Assembly: GCA_030323885.1 (NCBI GenBank)
Contig: CM059191.1
Span: 102,720,292-102,784,291, forward strand
Reading direction: 5' to 3'
Length of the DNA stretch: 64,000 bases
DNA from: Branchipolynoe longqiensis
Taxonomy: Eukaryota > Annelida > Polychaeta > Phyllodocida > Polynoidae
A model generated the notes under the pieces. That model was not told where the DNA came from. It did not search any database and saw only the letters and a program-made list of their open reading frames with translations. Made by a program: the position numbers and the translations under genes. Shown one piece after another: positions 12,024 through 53,297 of this stretch; within the stretch, counting starts at the first letter, position 1; the number at the start of each line of letters is the position of its first letter.

Positions 12024-12056
12024 TGTCATGGGGGTGATGAAAATGGGAAATATTGT

Positions 12057-12128
12057 GCCTAGAGCGGGACTCGAACCCACATCTCTTTGCATTCTGGGCC
12101 AGTGTGCTAACCATTACACCACCTAGGC
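12057..12128 (-). ncRNA. tRNA-like unit in TRIM LTR (copy A, 3' LTR)
   Basis: A 72 nt unit with acceptor stem GCCTAGG/TCTAGGC, a D arm (A box TGGTGTAATGGTTAG) and a T arm with a consensus B box (GGTTCGAGTCC). The anticodon stem is poor and U33 is missing, so it is not a decoding tRNA, but the pol III promoter is intact. The D arm resembles tRNA-Gln/Glu. A TTTT run about 20 nt downstream, still inside the LTR, could end transcription. Confidence 0.75.
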
Positions 12129-12376
12129 TCCCTGATATCAACACACTACCCATGCCTACCTGTCTATGCGGCTCCTTGCCTGAGAGGTCAGTGCAGACCA
12201 CTACACTCATCCCCCTGGAATTGTAAGTCTTTTAATGCTTACAATTACATACATACAGGCAATGCAACACACTTACATACATAGGGTAGGTTCAACAACT
12301 ATACAGCGCATAGCTTGTACATGATCATGGTCACGGCAACCAATGTCATGGGGGTGATGAAAATGGGAAATATTGT

Positions 12377-12448
12377 GCCTAGAGCGGGACTTGAACCCAC
12401 ATCTCTTTGCATTCTGGGCCAGTGTGCTAACCATTACACCACCTAGGC
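12377..12448 (-). ncRNA. tRNA-like unit in TRIM LTR (copy A, 5' LTR)
   Basis: Second copy of the tRNA-like unit in the 5' LTR (sense strand minus). It has a single C/T difference from the other LTR, in the B box (GGTTCAAGTCC). In this LTR a pol III transcript would run towards the primer site. Confidence 0.75.
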
Positions 12449-12525
12449 TCCCTGATATCAACACACTACCCATGCCTACCTGTCTATGCGGCTCCTTGCC
12501 TGAGAGGTCAGTGCAGACCACTACA

Positions 12526-12860
12526 ATATATATAAAGTTCAAATGTTTATTTATCATAACCAGCTTCTTTTTGTGTGAATAATTGGTTAAATCATGTAGA
12601 TTAATAGACTTTAAAAGTTGAATTGAGAGCTTTCTGTGGCGGTCATCTTGGTGGTTGCCATGGCTTCCCCTGTGTGTAGGGAACCTCTCTAGGTCATGTG
12701 ATGAGGGAATCCCACCTATGATGTCATTCATACATCACATACCTCAACTCTCCTCCCACATGTTCAGTGGAATGAACTGAACAAACTAAGCAAAGGTATG
12801 TTTGGAGAGCTTTTGATGCTGGATTCGTTTGTATCTGGGTGAGGTATAGCTGGTGACTTT
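12526..12860 (-). mobile_element. long-TIR element H, copy 1, right part
   Basis: Continuation of element H beyond the TRIM. It matches 30857-31200 reversed and ends with a degenerate inverted repeat of the left end. Confidence 0.8.
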
Positions 12861-30260: not shown

Positions 30261-30856
30261 CTGATTGGTGGAATGGTGCTAGGATAGTGTTAGGACTAGG
30301 ATAATAGTGTATGGCACCTGAGTCAGGGAATTTACCACGATTCGCAGAAAGTGCTGAGCCTATGGGACAATATCAGCATTTCCAACTAAGAGTAACAGTC
30401 ATGTAACAGTCATCTAATAGAGGAGGATATGCAGCGATGAAAGGAGGATACCCAACCAGCTCTTACTTGGCCATTGGGTCAACTGAACAAGCCCTTTATT
30501 GAGAATACATTTTCAGAGTCATTTTTCCATTATTGATATGGTGTGATTCAAAAATGGGTGGTTGCATGGTAAATTTCAACCATGCTTCAAACACTTAATC
30601 TGTACTATACATAAATGAAATGTGTTACTTATGTCCGATTATGAAACTACTACTACATCTGATTTGCACTGAGAACTATCAGTGGGTTGTTTCCAGAAGT
30701 TGCACTCACTGGGTGGAACTAAATATAGCAAGTGATGCCAGTTGGGTCTTCCCGATTACTGCACTTATAATGCTTATGCTATAATATAATAAATACATTC
30801 TTTCTCTAATAGAGTGGTGGTCTCTTGTGTTTCCGAAATGTCTATATGTTGGGCCT

Positions 30857-31388
30857 TAAAGTCGCCGGCTATACCTCACCCAGATACAAACGAATCCATC
30901 ATCAAAAGCTCTCCAAACATACCTTTGCTTAGTTTGTTCAGTTCATGCCACTGAACATGTGGGAGGAGAGTTGAGGTATGTGATGTATGAATTACATCAT
31001 AGGTGGGATTCCCTCATCACATGACCTAGAGGGGTTCTCCACACACAGGGGTAGCCATGGCAACCACCAAGATGGCAGCCATAGAAAGCTCTCAATTCAA
31101 CTTTTAAAGTCTATTAATCTACATGATTTAATCAATTATTCACACAAAACGTAGCTGGTTATGATAAATATACATTTGAACTTTATATTTATCATTTTAG
31201 ATTGCAATTTCTAACATTTGTTTCTCTATATGGTTGTCTAAAAGTGTCAGTGCTGCTGGACTAAATAAAACACAACAGAAGAAAGCAATGTCAGCACTCT
31301 CCCCCCAGATATGTAGTTGCATAAACTGAAAACTGGCAAACATATGCTTGGAGAGCATTTGTCAGAGTGCGGGTAGTGTCGAACCTGG
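30857..31388 (+). mobile_element. long-TIR element H, copy 2 (uninterrupted)
   Basis: About 530 bp whose ends form a degenerate inverted repeat (CTCTCCAAACATACCTTTGC against CTCTCCAAGCATATGTTTGC). It corresponds base for base, reversed, to 11835-12023 plus 12526-12860. The TRIM insertion point falls near 31195-31205, where this copy is uninterrupted. Non-coding. Confidence 0.8.
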
Positions 31389-34968: not shown

Positions 34969-35472
34969 TGTCATGGGGGTGATGAAAATGGGAAATATTG
35001 CGCCTAGAGCGGGACTCGAACCCATATCTCTTTGCAATCCGGGCCAGTGTGCTAACCATTACACCACCTAGGCTCCCTGATATCACCACACTACCCATGC
35101 CTACCTGTCTATGTGGATACTTGCCTGAGAGGTCAGTGCAGACCACTACACTCGTCCCCCTGGAATGGTAAGTCTTTTAATGCTTACAATTACATACATA
35201 CAGGCAATGCACTAACACATACATACACACGGTAGGTTCAACAACCATACATCACGTAGCTTGTACAGGATCATGGTCACAGCAACCAGTGTCATGGGGG
35301 GTGATGAACATGGGAAATATTGCGCCTAGTGCGGGACTCAAACCCACATCTCTTTGCAATCCGGGCCAGTCTGCTAACGATTACACCACCTAGGCTCCCT
35401 GATATCACCACACTACCCATGCCTACCTGTCTATGTGCCTACTTGCCTGAGAGGTCAGTGCAGGCTACTACA
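34969..35472 (-). mobile_element. TRIM retroelement copy B with tRNA-like LTRs
   Basis: LTRs at 34969-35150 (182 bp) and 35290-35472 (183 bp) start and end TG/CA, with a primer-site-like TGGTTGCTGTGACC at 35275-35288 and a purine tract at 35151-35162 (both minus sense). Both LTRs hold the tRNA-like unit. Flanks share ATAT (4 bp). The two LTRs differ at more positions than in copy A, so this insertion is older. Confidence 0.8.
35002..35073 (-). ncRNA. tRNA-like unit in TRIM LTR (copy B)
   Basis: 72 nt, same fold as in copy A, with intact A and B boxes. The partner unit in the other LTR is at 35324-35395, where the acceptor stem has a change (GCCTAGTGC) and the D arm differs by one base. Confidence 0.7.
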
Positions 35473-36215: not shown

Positions 36216-36728
36216 CAGGTTGCAGCGGTTTCCTCGTTTTAGCTATGGTGGTCATTTGACCTCCGAGTTAATTACCAAGGTCGAATTATATATAAGATTA
36301 ATGTGAAGTTTGACTAAATTGGCTGTGGCACACTAAGTTTTGGGATGTTTTCATATTGGAATTCATCACTAGTAAGCAACAAATTATATCTAAATTCCTG
36401 AATATTCCCAGGACATTTGAGTAAATTATCAGTGAATATTAGGAAATAATTCATTAGTTACAAGAAATGGCTACAGGCCAGAACTGCCCATGCTAATATT
36501 CACTGCTAATTTACTCAATTCGGTCCCAACTAAATGCCCTGGGAATGTTCAGGAATTTAGATATAATTTGGTGTTTTCTAGTGATGTATTCCAAAATGAA
36601 AACATCCCAAAACTCAGTGTGCCACAACCAGATTTGTTAAACTGCACATTCATCTTATATAAAACTTGGTAAGTGAAGCAGACATCTAATAACCCCCGTA
36701 GACCAAACGAGGTAAGCTCCGCAACCTG
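36216..36728. mobile_element. foldback element 2 (5 bp target duplication)
   Basis: 513 bp consisting of two ~230 bp inverted arms around a ~50 bp spacer (about 36443-36492). Ends CAGGTTGC / GCAACCTG are flanked by GTAAA on both sides (36211-36215 and 36729-36733). Arms match well in the segments 'gtggcacactRagttttggg' and 'aaattatatctaaattcctg'. It is non-coding and of the same structural class as 14316-17042. Confidence 0.85.
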
Positions 36729-39367: not shown

Positions 39368-39874
39368 TGTAGTGGTCTGCACTGACCTCTCAGGCAAGTA
39401 ACCACATACACAGGTAGCTGTGGGCAGTGTGGTGATATCATGGAGCCTAGGTGGTGAAATGGTTAGAACACTGGGCCGGAATGCATAGAGATGTGGGTTT
39501 GAGTCCCGCTCTAGGCGCAATATTTCCCATTTTCATCACCCCCATGACACTGGTGCCTTGGCCAGGATCCTGTAGAAGCTACACGCTGTGTGGTTGTTGA
39601 ACCTACCCTGTGTATGTATGCGTTAGTGCATTGCCTGTATGTATGTAATTTTAAGCATTAAAAGACTTACAATTCCAGGGGGACGAGTGTAGTGTCTGCA
39701 CTGACCTCTCAGGTAAATAACCACACGGACAGGTAGGCATGGGTAGTGTGGTGATATAATGGAACCTAGGTGGTGTGATGGTTAGCACACTGGCCCGGAA
39801 TGCAAAAATATGTGGGTATGAGTCCCGCTCTGGGCGCAATATTTCCCATTTTCATCCCCCCCCCCCCCCCGACA
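39368..39874 (+). mobile_element. TRIM retroelement copy C with tRNA-like LTRs
   Basis: LTRs at 39368-39549 and 39688-39874, here on the plus strand: TGTAGTGGTCTGCACTG ... CCCATGACA. A primer-site-like TGGTGCCTTGGCC follows after one base (39551-39568), and the purine tract AGGGGGACGAG ends at 39687, directly before the second LTR. A C homopolymer has expanded near the end of the second LTR. No clear target duplication was found, so it is the oldest or most altered copy. Confidence 0.8.
39445..39516 (+). ncRNA. tRNA-like unit in TRIM LTR (copy C)
   Basis: 72 nt with GCCTAGG/TCTAGGC acceptor stem and B box GGTTTGAGTCC. The partner in the second LTR is 39764-39835, with ACCTAGG/TCTGGGC and GGTATGAGTCC, so it is more decayed. 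Confidence 0.7.
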
Positions 39875-46376: not shown

Positions 46377-49300
46377 GTGCAGGTGTGGCTTGGTGAGTGG
46401 AGTGAGTGGTGGTGGTGGGGGGCTGATAACGCTACACACACAGGCTAATTAGTGTTGATCAAACATCAAAGTGTGCGGGTGTGGCTTGGTGAGTGGAGTG
46501 AGTGAGTGGTGGGGTGATAACGCTACACACACAGGCTAGTTAGTGTTGATCAAACATCAAAGTGTGTGTGTGTGGCTTGGTGAGTGGAGTGAGTGGTGGT
46601 GGTGGGCTGATAACGCTACACACACAGGCTAGTTAGTGTTGATCAAACATCAAAGTGTGTGTGTGTGGCTTGGTGAGTGGAGTGAGTGAGTGGTGGTGGG
46701 GGGCTGATACCTTTACACACACAGGCTAGTTAGTGTTGATCAAACATCAAAGTGTCTGTGTGTGGCTTGGTGAGTGGAGTGAGTGAGTGGGGGGGCTGAT
46801 AACGCTACACACACAGGCTAGTTAGTGTCGATCAAACATCAAAGTGTGCGGTGTGGCTTGGTGAGTGGAGTGAGTGAGTAGGGGGCTGATAACGCTACAC
46901 ACACAGGCTAGTTCGTGTTGATCAAACATCAAAGTGTGCGGTGTGGCTTGGTGAGTGGAGTGAGTGAGTGAGTGGCGGGGTGCTGATACCGTTACACACA
47001 CAGGCTAGTTTGTGTTGATCAAACATCAAAGTGTGCGGGTGTGGCTTGGTGAGTGGAGTGAGTGAGTGGGGGGCTGATAAGGCTACACACACAGGCTAGT
47101 CAGTGTTGATCAAACATCAAAGTGTGTGTGTGTGGCTTGGTGAGTGGAGTGAGTGGTGGTGGCGTGCTGATACCGTTACACACACAGGCTAGTTAGTGTT
47201 AATCAAACATCAAAGTGTGCGGGTGTGGCTTGGTGAGTGGAGTGAGTGAGTGGTGGTGGGCTGATACCGTTACACACACAGGCTAGTTAGTGTTGATCAA
47301 ACATCAAAGTGTGTGTGTGTGGCTTGGTGAGTGGAGTGAGTGAGTGGTGGTGGGGGGCTGATGCCGTTACACACACAGGCTAGTTAGTGTTGATCAAACA
47401 TCAAAGTGTGTGTGTGTGGCTTGGTGAGTGGAGTGAGTGAGTGGTGGGGGCTGATACCGTTACACACACAGGCTAGTTAGTGTTGATCAAACATCAAAGT
47501 GTGCAGGTGTGGCTTGGTGAGTGGAGTGAGTGAGTGGTGGTGGGGGGCTGATACCTTTACACACACAGACTAGTTAGTGTTGATCAAACATCAAAGTGTG
47601 CGGATGTGGCTTGGTGAGTGGAGTGAGTGAGTGGTGCTGGGCTGATACCCTTACACACACAGGCTAGTTAGTGTTGATCAAACATCAAAGTGTGCGGGTG
47701 TGGCTTGGTGACTGGAGTGAGTGGTGGTGGTGGGGGGCTGATAACGCTACAGAGACAGGCTAGTTAGTGTTGATCAAACATCAAAGTGTGTGTGTGTGGC
47801 TTGGTGAGTGGAGTGAGTGAGTGGTGGTGGGGGGCTGATAATGCTACACACACAGGCTAGTTAGTGTTGATCAAACATCAAAGTGTGTGTGTGTGGCTTG
47901 GTGAGTGGAGTAAGTGAGTGGTGGTGGGGGGCTGATACCGTTACACACACAGGCTAGTTAGTGTTGATCAAACATCAAAGTGTGCAGGTGTGGCTTGGTG
48001 AGTGGAGTGAGTGAGTGGTGAGGGGCTGATAATGCTACACACACAGGCTAGTTAGTGTTGATCAAACATCAAAGTGTGCGGGTGTGGCTTGGTGAGTGGA
48101 GTAAGTGAGTGGTGGTGGGGGGCTGATACCGTTACACACACAGGCTAGTTAGTGTTGATCAAACATCAAAGTGTGTGTGTGTGGCTTGGTGAGTGGAGTG
48201 AGTGAGTGGTGGTGGGGGGGGGGCTGATAACGCTACACACACAGGCTAGTTAGAGTTGATCAAACATCAAAGTGTGCGGTGTGGCTTGGTGAGTGGAGTG
48301 AGTGGTGGTGGGGGCTGATACTGTTACACACAGGCTAGTTACTGTTGATCAAACATCAAAGTGTGTGTGTGTGGCTTGGTGAGTGGAGTGAGTGAGTGGG
48401 GGACTGATAACGCTACACACACAGGCTAGTTAGTGTTGATCAAACATCAAAGTGTGTGTGTGTGGCTTGGTGAGTGGAGTGAGTGAGTGTGGGGGGGGGG
48501 GCTGATGTCGTTACACACGCAGGCTAGTTAGTGTTGATCAAACATCAAAGTGTGTGTGTGTGGCTTGTTGAGTGGAGTGAGTGAGTGGGGGGCTGATACC
48601 GCTACACACACAGGCTAGTTAGTGTTGATCAAACATCAAAGTGTGCGGGTGTGGCTTGGTGAGTGGAGTGAGTGAGTGGGGGGCTGATAACGCTACACAC
48701 ACAGGCTAGTTAGTGTTGATCAAACATCAAAGTGTGTGTGTGTGGCTTGGTGAGTGGAGTGAGTGAGTGGGGGGGTGGGGAGGGCTGATACCGTTACACA
48801 CACAGGCTAGTTAGTGTTGATCAAACATCAAAGTGTGTGTGTGTGGCTTGGTGAGTGGAGTGAGTGAGTGGGGGGCTGATACCGCTACACACACAGGCTA
48901 GTTAGTGTTGATCAAACATCAAAGTGTGCGGGTGTGGCTTGGTGAGTGGAGTGAGTGAGTGGTGGTGGGCTGATCCCTTTACACACACAGGATAGTTAGT
49001 GTTGATCAAACATCAGAGTGTGCAGGTGTGGCTTGGTGAGTGGAGTGAGTGAGTGGTGGTGGGGGGCTGATACCGTTACACACACAGGATAGTTAGTGTT
49101 GATCAAACATCAAAGTGTGCATGTGTGGCTTGGTGAGTGGAGTGAGTGAGTGGTGGTGGGGGGCTGATACCGTTACACACACAGGATAGTTAGTGTTGAT
49201 CAAACATCAAAGTGTGTGGGTGTGGCTTGGTGAGTGGAGTGAGTGGTGGTGGGGGGCTGATACCGTTACACACACAGGCTAGTTAGTGTTGATCAAACAT

Positions 49301-50150
49301 CAAAGTGTGTGTGTGTGGCTTGGTGAGTGGAGTGAGTGAGTGGCGGAGGGGGGCTGATACCGTTACACACAGGCTAGGTAGTGTTGATCAAACATCAAAG
49401 TGTGTGTGGCTTGGTGAGTGGAGTGAGTGGTGGTGGGGGGCTGATACCGTTACACTCACATGCTAGTTAGAGTTGATCAAACATCAAAGTGTGCAGGTGT
49501 GGCTTGGTGAGTGGAGTGAGTGAGTGAGTGGGGGGCTGATACCTTTACACACACAGGCTAGTTAGTGCGTGAGTGGTGGTGGGGGGCTGATACCGTTAAA
49601 CACACAGGCTAGTTAGTGTTGATCAAACATCAAAGTGTGCAGGTGTGGCTTGGTGAGTCGAGTGAGTGAGTGGTGGTGGGGGCCTGATACCGTTACACAC
49701 ACAGGCTAGTTAGTGTTGATCAAACATCAAAGTGGGGGGGGGGGGGTTGATACCGTTACACACACAGAGGGAAGTTAGTGGTGAGCAATCATTATAGTGT
49801 GTGGGTGTGGCTTGGTGAGTGGATTGAGTGAGTGGTGGCAGGGGGTTGATACCGTTACACACACAGAGGGAAGTTAGTGGTGAGCAATCATTATAGAGTG
49901 TGGGTGTGGCTTGGTGAGTGGAGTGAGTGAGTGGTGGTGGGGGGCTGATACCATTACACACACAGGCTAGTTAGAGTTGATCAAACATCAAAGTGTGCAG
50001 GTGTGGCTTGGTGAGTGGAGTGAGTGGTGGTGGGGGGCTGGTACCGCTACACACACAGGCTAGTTAGTATTGATCAAACATCAAAGTGTGCGGGTGTGGC
50101 TTGGTGAGTGGAGTGAGTGGGTGGCGGTGGGGGGCTGATACCGTTACTCA
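46377..50150. repeat. 3.8 kb satellite array, ~85-100 bp unit, ~40 copies
   Basis: Each unit has a conserved core (ACACACACAGGCTAGTTAGT, then GTTGATCAAACATCAAAG), a second core (GTGTGGCTTGGTGAGTGGAG) and three variable microsatellite segments: (GTGT)n, (GAGT)n and G runs of 3 to about 14. The unit length varies through these segments. Near 49730-49900 two units carry a variant core (GGGAAGTTAGTGGTGAGCAA). At about 49560 a unit is truncated. There is no open frame of note. Confidence 0.95.
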
Positions 50151-50215: not shown

Positions 50216-50324
50216 GAATTATAGTGAATTTCCATAGTTTACATCCACAAATTATTTAATGCTTACAATCACATGCATACATCCAATGCATTAGAATACA
50301 TACAATTTGGATATACGAAATATG

Positions 50325-52250: not shown

Positions 52251-52350
52251 TCTTTACATATGTCTTATTATTTACATATGTAAATAATAAGACATATGTA
52301 AAGAGATCGGGCAAACGTACACCAAAAATTTGGTGTACGTTTGCCCGATC
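52251..52350. repeat. two abutting palindromes at a LINE 5' junction
   Basis: 52251-52304 is a perfect 54 bp palindrome made of the genomic flank and its reverse complement. It is followed without a gap by 52305-52350, a 46 bp palindrome (22 bp arms, 2 bp centre) made of the first LINE bases reversed and then forward. Confidence 0.9.
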
Positions 52351-53297
52351 AGAGCTCGATTTCCACTGCAGAGGCCCGAGCACTCCTTCTCGCTTTGGAG
52401 TGTATCGAGGTATCCAACCACACTAACTATGTTATATACAGTGATTCCTTCTCTTGCCTCCTGGCTGTTGCTGGACTGAAAATGAATCACCCTATTCTAG
52501 CAACGGTCATTTATAAAATGAACCAACTGACAACAGATGGGTATGATATCCACCTGTGCTGGGTGCCTGGCCATGCTGGCATACAAGGAAACGAACGAGC
52601 TGATCGGGCTGCGAAGAAGGCCCTGAACTGTGATCTTGAACCGTGTCTGATCCCTCACTCTGATCTGAAACCACTAATAGCCACCCACATAAAATCCAAA
52701 TGGCAACATGAGTGGGATGAAAACATCAATAAACTTAAAGAAATTGAACCATCTGTGGGAAAGCCACCACAGACTCATGCGGGAGGTCGGCGGGACCAAG
52801 TGGTCCTTAGTCGCTGCCGTGTTGGCCACTCGTGGCTTACACATGCTTTTCTGCTCAAGGGGGAACCTCCCCTGAATGTATTGGGTGTCAGTCCCCACTG
52901 ACACTCAAACACATTTTACTAAGTTGCGTTGATTTTTTGGCCCTGCGCCAACGGTTCTACACTGCAGGCAGTATGCATGACCTTTTTACTAAGGTAAAAC
53001 AGGAAAACATTTTAGCCTTTTTGAGGGCAGCTGGACTGTACCACCTTATATAGTTTACTAAATGGATTCTATTAATTATTAATGAAACTTTTCTTTTTCT
53101 ATGGGAATTTGTTTCCCTTGACCGCAGATATATGATTGTGAGCTTTCTAATTTAATTAGTGTCTATTGGCACATAATTGATTGTCTGCTTTTACATGTAA
53201 AAGCGATGGTTTGAACAAAAAACAAACATTTCTCGCCGTGAATATGGCCTATGCTGCCGACATGGCGTAAAGCAACCACCAATCAATCAATCAATCA
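52305..53297 (+). pseudogene. LINE RNase H domain and C-terminus, 5'-truncated
   Basis: From 52341 the plus strand reads LPDQSSISTAEARALLLALE, then YSDSFSCLLAV and WVPGHAGIQGNERADRAAK. These are the second, third and fourth conserved blocks of an RNase H domain with its Glu, Asp, His and Asp; the first catalytic Asp lies upstream and is lost. After about 185 codons a frameshift near 52865-52880 moves to a second frame with ECIGCQSPLTLKHILLSC, a Cys-x2-Cys-x7-His-x4-Cys knuckle typical of this LINE group. It ends at AAGLYHLI. A 3' UTR with the 'cgtgaatatggcctatgctg' block and a (TCAA)n tail follows. The 10 bp duplication TATTATTTAC (52266-52275 and 53298-53307) brackets the insertion. RNase H-bearing LINEs of the I/R1-related groups are the likely source. 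Confidence 0.85.

Follow-up and report, generated by a model that had tools for sequence, protein, structure and literature searches.

A Helenus-type TRIM with a tRNA-like unit in each LTR is abundant in the genome of the annelid Branchipolynoe longqiensis

The genome of the polynoid annelid Branchipolynoe longqiensis carries, in large numbers, a short retroelement that belongs to the Helenus kind of TRIMs, an assignment made by design and not by sequence identity to Repbase families. Very probably, it is a non-autonomous element of about 500 bp that is transcribed from an internal LTR promoter derived from a tRNA. The kind has already been described; the family, its abundance and a tentative partner are new. 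The architecture of the element, its target duplications, an empty site, solo LTRs, arrays, its abundance and the presence of one regular TTTT run are all observed directly in the assembly.

Structure of the copies in the window

The window, i.e. the whole stretch of 64,000 nucleotides that was analysed, lies on contig 6 of an assembly of 1.85 Gb, in which contigs C1–C18 measure 48–189 Mb and the next four, C19–C22, less than 60 kb; a search of this assembly for COX1 gave no match. It holds three LTR–interior–LTR copies, located at 12024–12525 (minus strand), 34969–35472 (minus strand) and 39368 to about 39874 (plus strand), the last end being set by eye beyond a run of C. The first-pass annotation had placed three copies sharing one plan at these positions, which were borne out; the direct repeats of about 182 bp, the one-base spacer, the primer site starting with TGG and the abutting AGGGGGAYGAG tract that it described are seen in all three. 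The elements measure 502–507 bp and their interiors 138–139 bp. On the sense strand (the minus strand for copies 1 and 2), the LTRs of about 182 bp run from TGTAGT to GACA. The two LTRs of a copy are identical in 181 of 182 aligned columns for copy 1, 172 of 183 for copy 2 and 154 of 182 for copy 3, this last figure ending at 39862, within the C run.

In copy 1 (minus strand), the LTR-pair alignment delimits a 5' LTR of 182 bp (12344–12525) and a 3' LTR (12024–12205). The interior of 138 bp (12206–12343) consists of the spacer, the primer binding site TGGTTGCCGTGACC (12329–12342), a leader, an inverted repeat and the purine tract AGGGGGATGAG (12206–12216), which touches the 3' LTR. The tRNA-like units occupy 12376–12448 in the 5' LTR and 12056–12128 in the 3' LTR, each being detected by RF00005 (47.3 bits) and by ARAGORN; in the former, the A box lies at about 12430–12441 and the B box at about 12387–12397. 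On the 3' side of this unit, a TTTT (12360–12363) is a candidate pol III stop, and its counterpart in the 3' LTR (12040–12043) is a candidate 3' end of the element RNA. Copy 2 (minus strand) comprises a 3' LTR (34969–35150), an interior (35151–35289) and a 5' LTR (35290–35472), with units found by Rfam at 35001–35073 and 35323–35395. Copy 3 (plus strand) comprises a 5' LTR (39368–39549), an interior (39550–39687) and a 3' LTR (39688 to about 39874), with units found by Rfam at 39445–39517 and 39764–39836. A 152-aa ORF (12273–12731) overlaps copy 1 and crosses the border of the element; it has no match in Pfam.

Other features are present in the window. A 50-bp match to the TRIM interior (50255–50304) lies just past a tandem array of units of about 97 bp (46383–50147), whose main block (46383–49567) contains 33.8 copies. 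A 186-aa ORF (52341–52901, plus strand) with an RNase H domain (E 4e-11) and 69 protein relatives is probably a retroelement remnant. A match to Rfam MIR2630 (36367–36584, plus strand; 43 bits, far under the cut-off of 144) probably reflects an inverted repeat (36286–36664) and not a microRNA.

Genome-wide abundance

The 24-bp 3' end of the LTR has 11,132 exact matches in the genome (5,506 + 5,626) and the reversed pattern has none (0 + 0), which excludes chance. Along the first 13.1 Mb of C1, 70 loci were chosen through this exact LTR end. They yield 84 exact ends; with minimum matches of 170 positions for an LTR and 125 for an interior, they hold 112 LTRs and 59 interiors. Scaled up proportionally from this one chromosome end, the totals for the genome would be in the region of 14,800 for LTRs and 7,800 for interiors. 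The 77 chains of these 70 loci include 37 LTR–interior–LTR elements, seven complete solo LTRs and seven arrays.

A larger set drawn from the window and from loci L001–L098, from which overlapping duplicates and two chains at locus edges were left out, contains 113 distinct chains: 62 LTR–interior–LTR elements, eight complete solo LTRs, eight arrays of the form LTR–interior–LTR–interior–LTR, the rest including fragments. This sample is a selected one, L001–L008 and L039–L058 being the best matches to copy 1, L001 being copy 1 itself and 70 loci having been chosen through an exact LTR end. Among the 62 complete copies, the interior measures 129–151 bp, and the LTRs of a pair diverge by 0 to 10.4%, with a median between 2.2 and 2.7%. 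This range indicates that copies were added over some time, including recently.

The tRNA-like unit and the candidate promoter

The first-pass annotation had reported a tRNA-like unit of 72 nt in each LTR, with a decayed anticodon arm. Its presence is supported by RF00005 in all six LTRs of the window (47.3, 47.3, 37.7, 34.1, 27.8 and 27.7 bits; the last two, just below the gathering score of 29, were found by a laxer search), and three of the six units are called by ARAGORN, all as tRNA-Ser. Its length has to be corrected, being 73 nt in 116 of 124 sampled LTRs. In the sample of 62 pairs, pairing is kept in 849 of 868 cells of the acceptor stem, 487 of 493 of the D stem and 611 of 620 of the T stem; two of the five pairs of the anticodon stem are broken, as the decay of this arm implied. 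The predicted fold of a 72-nt stretch of the unit is not a cloverleaf and is no stabler than those of shuffled sequences (z -0.31).

Constraint on the unit was examined in the 62 LTR pairs, variants common to both LTRs being taken as inherited from the source element and those differing between them as acquired after insertion. The columns of the A and B boxes show two inherited and 35 post-insertion variants, against 170 and 349 in all others (Fisher p 0.00016, a value that is too small because related copies are not independent). Counted by column, the contrast is weak: none of the 23 box columns has an inherited variant present in at least three elements, against 13 of the 159 other columns. 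The unit as a whole is not less variable, columns with at least two inherited variants amounting to 5 of 73 in the unit and 9 of 77 in U3 (p 0.40). These variants are consistent with selection on the promoter, without proving it. The suggestion that the promoter rather than the tRNA has been kept thus agrees with the variation of the boxes and is plausible at most, since the acceptor stem, with two inherited and 36 post-insertion variants, is kept about as well as they are.

Two other readings of the unit have to be weighed. It may be a passenger, namely a SINE caught in the LTR of an element that pol II transcribes from U3. Any LTR can host a SINE and, because the family is young, variants within LTR pairs are a weak test of promoter constraint. 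However, the TRIM LTR sequence that was examined contains no AATAAA, whereas the LTR of the tentative partner presented below has one, and the sole regular TTTT sits 3' of the unit. Moreover, in some older relatives the equivalent place still holds a tRNA-like segment or what looks by eye like a B-box segment, although of four loci submitted to Rfam only two obtain a score, in both cases under the cut-off. A passenger is therefore unlikely. Still less probable is a unit that serves chiefly as an RNA structure, for packaging, for 3' processing by RNase P/Z or for priming. The pairing of the acceptor, D and T stems in 98–99% of cells and the few inherited variants at acceptor positions would fit such a role, but the sampled family has a broken anticodon stem, the fold just mentioned is neither stable nor a cloverleaf, and a young family has had little time for decay. 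Furthermore, according to the available part of Kojima 2024 (PMC10886601), units of this type lack complementarity to the primer site. A promoter derived from a tRNA thus remains the preferred reading.

An LTR retroelement and not a dimeric SINE

The element is a real LTR retroelement. It has two LTRs, a size below 1000 bp, no coding capacity, and a primer site and a purine tract at the ends of its interior, as TRIMs do. Its target duplications have a length typical of an integrase: the flanks that the first-pass annotation had proposed to compare are identical over 4 bp in 54 of 78 structurally complete chains; in 1000 shuffles of the flanks, the mean is 4.3 and the highest number 11. No exact duplication of any length from 3 to 9 bp is found in 23 of the 78. 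Among the 113 chains, 56 have four-base duplications, with T at the second position in 42 and A at the third in 37. Such duplications also flank three of the eight solo LTRs (L023, L072 and L094) and four of the eight three-LTR arrays.

In the window, copy 2 is flanked by ATAT at both ends, i.e. by a 4-bp target duplication. Copy 1 lies between two TATAT sequences of 5 bp; this is simple sequence, and the flanks match at three and five bases and not at four. No matching flanks were seen by eye for copy 3. Copy 1 interrupts a repeat whose second, element-free copy is intact at 30856–31383 (minus strand) and represents, by repeat comparison, the empty site; the best join drops five bases, four being nearly equal (133 vs 132).

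The first-pass annotation had stated that a majority of single 182-bp units with tails and duplications of 8–20 bp would point to a dimeric SINE, and the outcome goes against it, complete single LTRs being few and neither a 3' tail nor variable-length, target-primed duplications being seen in the inspected flanks. A dimeric SINE of tRNA origin, mobilised by a LINE and with two halves that would mimic LTRs, is barely conceivable and is ruled out by duplication length and structure: a short element in thousands of copies, with no recognised protein and with a tRNA-like unit bearing A and B boxes, would suit it, but the duplications are of 4 bp, the inspected flanks have no visible tail, the primer site and the purine tract stand where an LTR element has them, and there are solo LTRs, some with duplications, and arrays sharing LTRs. 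A hammerhead-type retrozyme was also considered and set aside; Rfam at its gathering score gives tRNA alone in the window.

Proposed RNA layout and life cycle

A run of four T is a minimal stop of pol III. In the 62 complete copies, TTTT is found in no interior, in no tRNA-like unit of the 5' LTRs and in the U3 region of a single 5' LTR. It occurs as CA-TTTT-CA in 57 of the 62 5' LTRs and 58 of the 62 3' LTRs, in a sample chosen in part by an LTR end that includes this TTTT. The lack of TTTT in the interiors counts as one inherited fact, the probability of a run being 0.64 per shuffled copy.

We infer how the element would be transcribed, which primer it would use and where its enzymes would come from. 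Pol III would start in the 5' LTR, at the 5' end of its tRNA-like unit or close to it (about LTR position 78), read through the weak TTTT of this LTR (positions 163–166) in some rounds, and end at the matching TTTT of the 3' LTR; with such a start and such an end, the stop of the 5' LTR must be leaky. The resulting RNA would carry a terminal direct repeat R of about 89 nt, leaving a U3 of about 77 nt and a U5 of 16 nt. A tRNA-His would anneal to the site located one base past the 5' LTR, an autonomous LTR retrotransposon would supply reverse transcriptase and integrase in trans, and the purine tract would prime the second strand. Integration would then yield the 4-bp duplications, with T and A favoured in the middle.

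The interior starts with N-TGGTTGCC in 43 of the 62 copies and with N-TGGTGCC in 10. We take TGGTGCC followed by GTGAC to be the complement of the 3' end of tRNA-His; the commonest site, TGGTTGCC, like that of copy 1, presumably has one extra T relative to it. At the other end of the interior, 54 of 62 copies have a perfect 9-bp inverted repeat, AATTGTAAG...CTTACAATT, just 5' of the purine tract, against 0 of 62 shuffled tails. By eye, an older family in locus L060 retains this inverted repeat. A compact RNA structure of the interior was rejected, the three interiors of the window folding no better than shuffled sequences (z +0.79, +0.87 and +0.81).

A tentative partner

A partner was sought with a primer-site pattern, CANTGGTGCCGTGACT, which has 53 exact matches in the genome (one for the control), 20 of which were inspected. 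Ten of these 20 loci, including L125, whose 5' part is foreign, belong to the TRIM family, and two (L132 and L137) are divergent relatives. Three others (L118, L121 and L122) are a single repeat, 98% alike, and two (L124 and L131) are satellite-like. L131 and L124 are tandem repeats with primer-site-like TGGTGCCGTGACTAGG / TTGGTTCCGTGACCAG units.

The remaining candidates, L123, L126 and L127, have LTR-like ends with an AATAAA 85–91 bases before the junction and end in ...TTACA-T-TGGTGCCGTGACT. Because the pattern was chosen to include them, the shared CA end, one-base spacer and primer site are no independent evidence of kinship with the TRIM. Evidence independent of the pattern comes from locus L138, which lies beside L126 and holds a pair of LTRs that match the L126 piece at about 92% identity and both start with TGTAGTAGTCTG; one is preceded by AAGGGGGGCAG and the other by TTGGGGCAG, to be compared with TGTAGTGGTCTG after AGGGGGATGAG in the TRIM. 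The partner LTR, of about 333 bp, carries the AATAAA and no B-box match. It shares 11 of 12 bases with the TRIM at the LTR 5' terminus, and the purine tracts are similar; BLAST of one LTR against the other finds no further similarity longer than 9 bases. The two LTRs of L138 agree in 332 of 335 columns and are followed by the same sequence, so that they may be a duplication; neither is followed by a primer site, and the LTR start and the primer site are therefore seen on different members of the family.

Locus L125 (positions 1–901) is a chimera of the two kinds of element: a related, AATAAA-bearing LTR, with 72% identity to L126 across 215 columns, and its primer site are fused directly with the second half of the interior of a TRIM, and TRIM LTRs follow. 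This is no proof that the two shared particles, because a deletion between primer sites or another recombination could explain the junction. Two results count against a partnership. L123, L126 and L127 carry different sequences 3' of the primer site, and Pfam finds no gag, reverse transcriptase or integrase in 13 ORFs of four loci (one of those listed for L126, one of those listed for L127, five of the six listed for L138 and six of the eight listed for L139). The opposite strand of L139 encodes one RNase H (E 1e-7); three other Pfam matches obtained with these ORFs, near E 0.04, are below their cut-offs.

The AATAAA-bearing family (L123, L126, L127 and L138) is thus a tentative partner of the TRIM. 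That the genome shows the cis signals binding a Helenus-type TRIM to a helper LTR family of pol II type is possible, though we would rather doubt it; these signals would be the LTR 5' terminus, the ...ACA end, the one-base spacer, the start of the tRNA-His primer site, a similar purine tract and little else.

Comparison with known elements

The first-pass annotation knew of no well-described animal counterpart, a statement that Kojima 2024 (PMC10886601) contradicts by naming Helenus, found in six animal phyla. In the available part of this paper, Helenus groups TRIMs from fungi, plants and these animals, which are set apart by the tRNA-derived sequence of their LTRs, the LTRs themselves being not well conserved; their transcription by pol III is unproven there. 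Animal Helenus have 4-bp duplications and resemble Gypsy elements in the primer-site region only, and some bivalve and vertebrate families are primed by tRNA-His. In the annelid element, too, each LTR bears a tRNA-derived sequence with A and B boxes, and there are a primer site of tRNA-His type, a purine tract and the 4-bp duplications of animal families; the element also shares solo LTRs, tandem arrays (as in zebrafish Helenus) and a unit that is unlikely to be a working tRNA. It differs from them by its abundance, the 11,132 exact 24-bp LTR ends exceeding the largest count in the available text, the 5,575 LTRs of LTR-11_DR (which also forms tandem arrays), although the two were counted differently. 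It also differs by its tentative partner, with which it has the LTR 5' terminus and a similar purine tract in common, whereas in animal Helenus the likeness is limited to the primer-site region. Among the matches listed in a literature search, with most subscription journals outside its scope, there was no further paper on Helenus or TRIMp3.

Other TRIMs share part of this design, as far as the available text of their descriptions goes. Cassandra of plants (Kalendar 2020, PMC7215508) has a pol III promoter and stop in its LTR and forms short tandem arrays; unlike the annelid element, it carries a 5S RNA, and its primer site appears as TGGTATCAGAGC in the search motif. No 5S RNA was found in the LTRs of the window, where Rfam at the gathering score returns only tRNA; under laxer settings, one further match, below threshold and not 5S, turns up on the other strand. 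Ajax (Kojima 2024, PMC10886601) is another TRIM whose LTR bears a promoter of pol III type, but it is 5S-derived, found in nemerteans and flanked by 5-bp duplications. The small biv-TRIM (Satovic 2019, PMC6934838) occurs, like the annelid element, as solo repeats and tandems, and its inner domain contains inverted repeats of 9–10 bp in some species, to be set beside the 9-bp repeat here. It differs by repeats of 202–218 bp, an interior of 77–80 bp and the lack of a recognised primer site, and tRNA units in its repeats are not mentioned in the available text. Its conserved TGATCCCAAAGGAC segment was not seen by eye in 15 interiors of the annelid TRIM, whose LTRs measure 182 bp.

Older relatives in the same genome

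A 20-base pattern of the tRNA-His site has no exact match in the genome and 10 matches with one mismatch, six in this TRIM family and four in other sequences. Several loci carry older relatives of the element, and primer sites of tRNA-His type occur among them. L110 contains LTR-like pieces 69.8 and 72.4% identical by BLAST, and L117 shows, by eye, a B-box segment ahead of the primer site; neither Rfam nor ARAGORN finds a tRNA in these two loci. L115 associates tandem U3-like repeats of about 62 bp with a different tRNA-like unit (Rfam 25.5 bits, under the cut-off). L114 contains a tandem derivative devoid of a tRNA unit and a separate older LTR that has one (tRNA-Tyr for ARAGORN; Rfam 23.3 bits, under the cut-off). 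In L060, an older family surrounds a young solo LTR. Judging from these sequences, it seems that the plan of the element was rebuilt on several occasions around ends that resemble one another.

Two of these loci contain tandem arrays derived from portions of related elements. In L115 (1693–2084), the units of about 62 bp are U3-like; in L114 (1264–1527), tandem units of 132 bp each combine a short LTR piece with interior sequence. It is as if such TRIMs seeded satellites.

Implications

Together, the target duplications, the empty site and the counts over the whole genome show that LTR elements with a tRNA-type promoter can attain five-figure LTR numbers within a single genome. They also inflate predictions of tRNA genes, the three tRNA-Ser called by ARAGORN in the window being pieces of them. 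If the link with the AATAAA-bearing family is true, the TRIM would consist of a pol III promoter set between its helper's minimal terminal signals, and several older families would have been built around the same signals. The LTR terminus, the spacer, the primer site and the purine tract can now be tested jointly against one candidate family.
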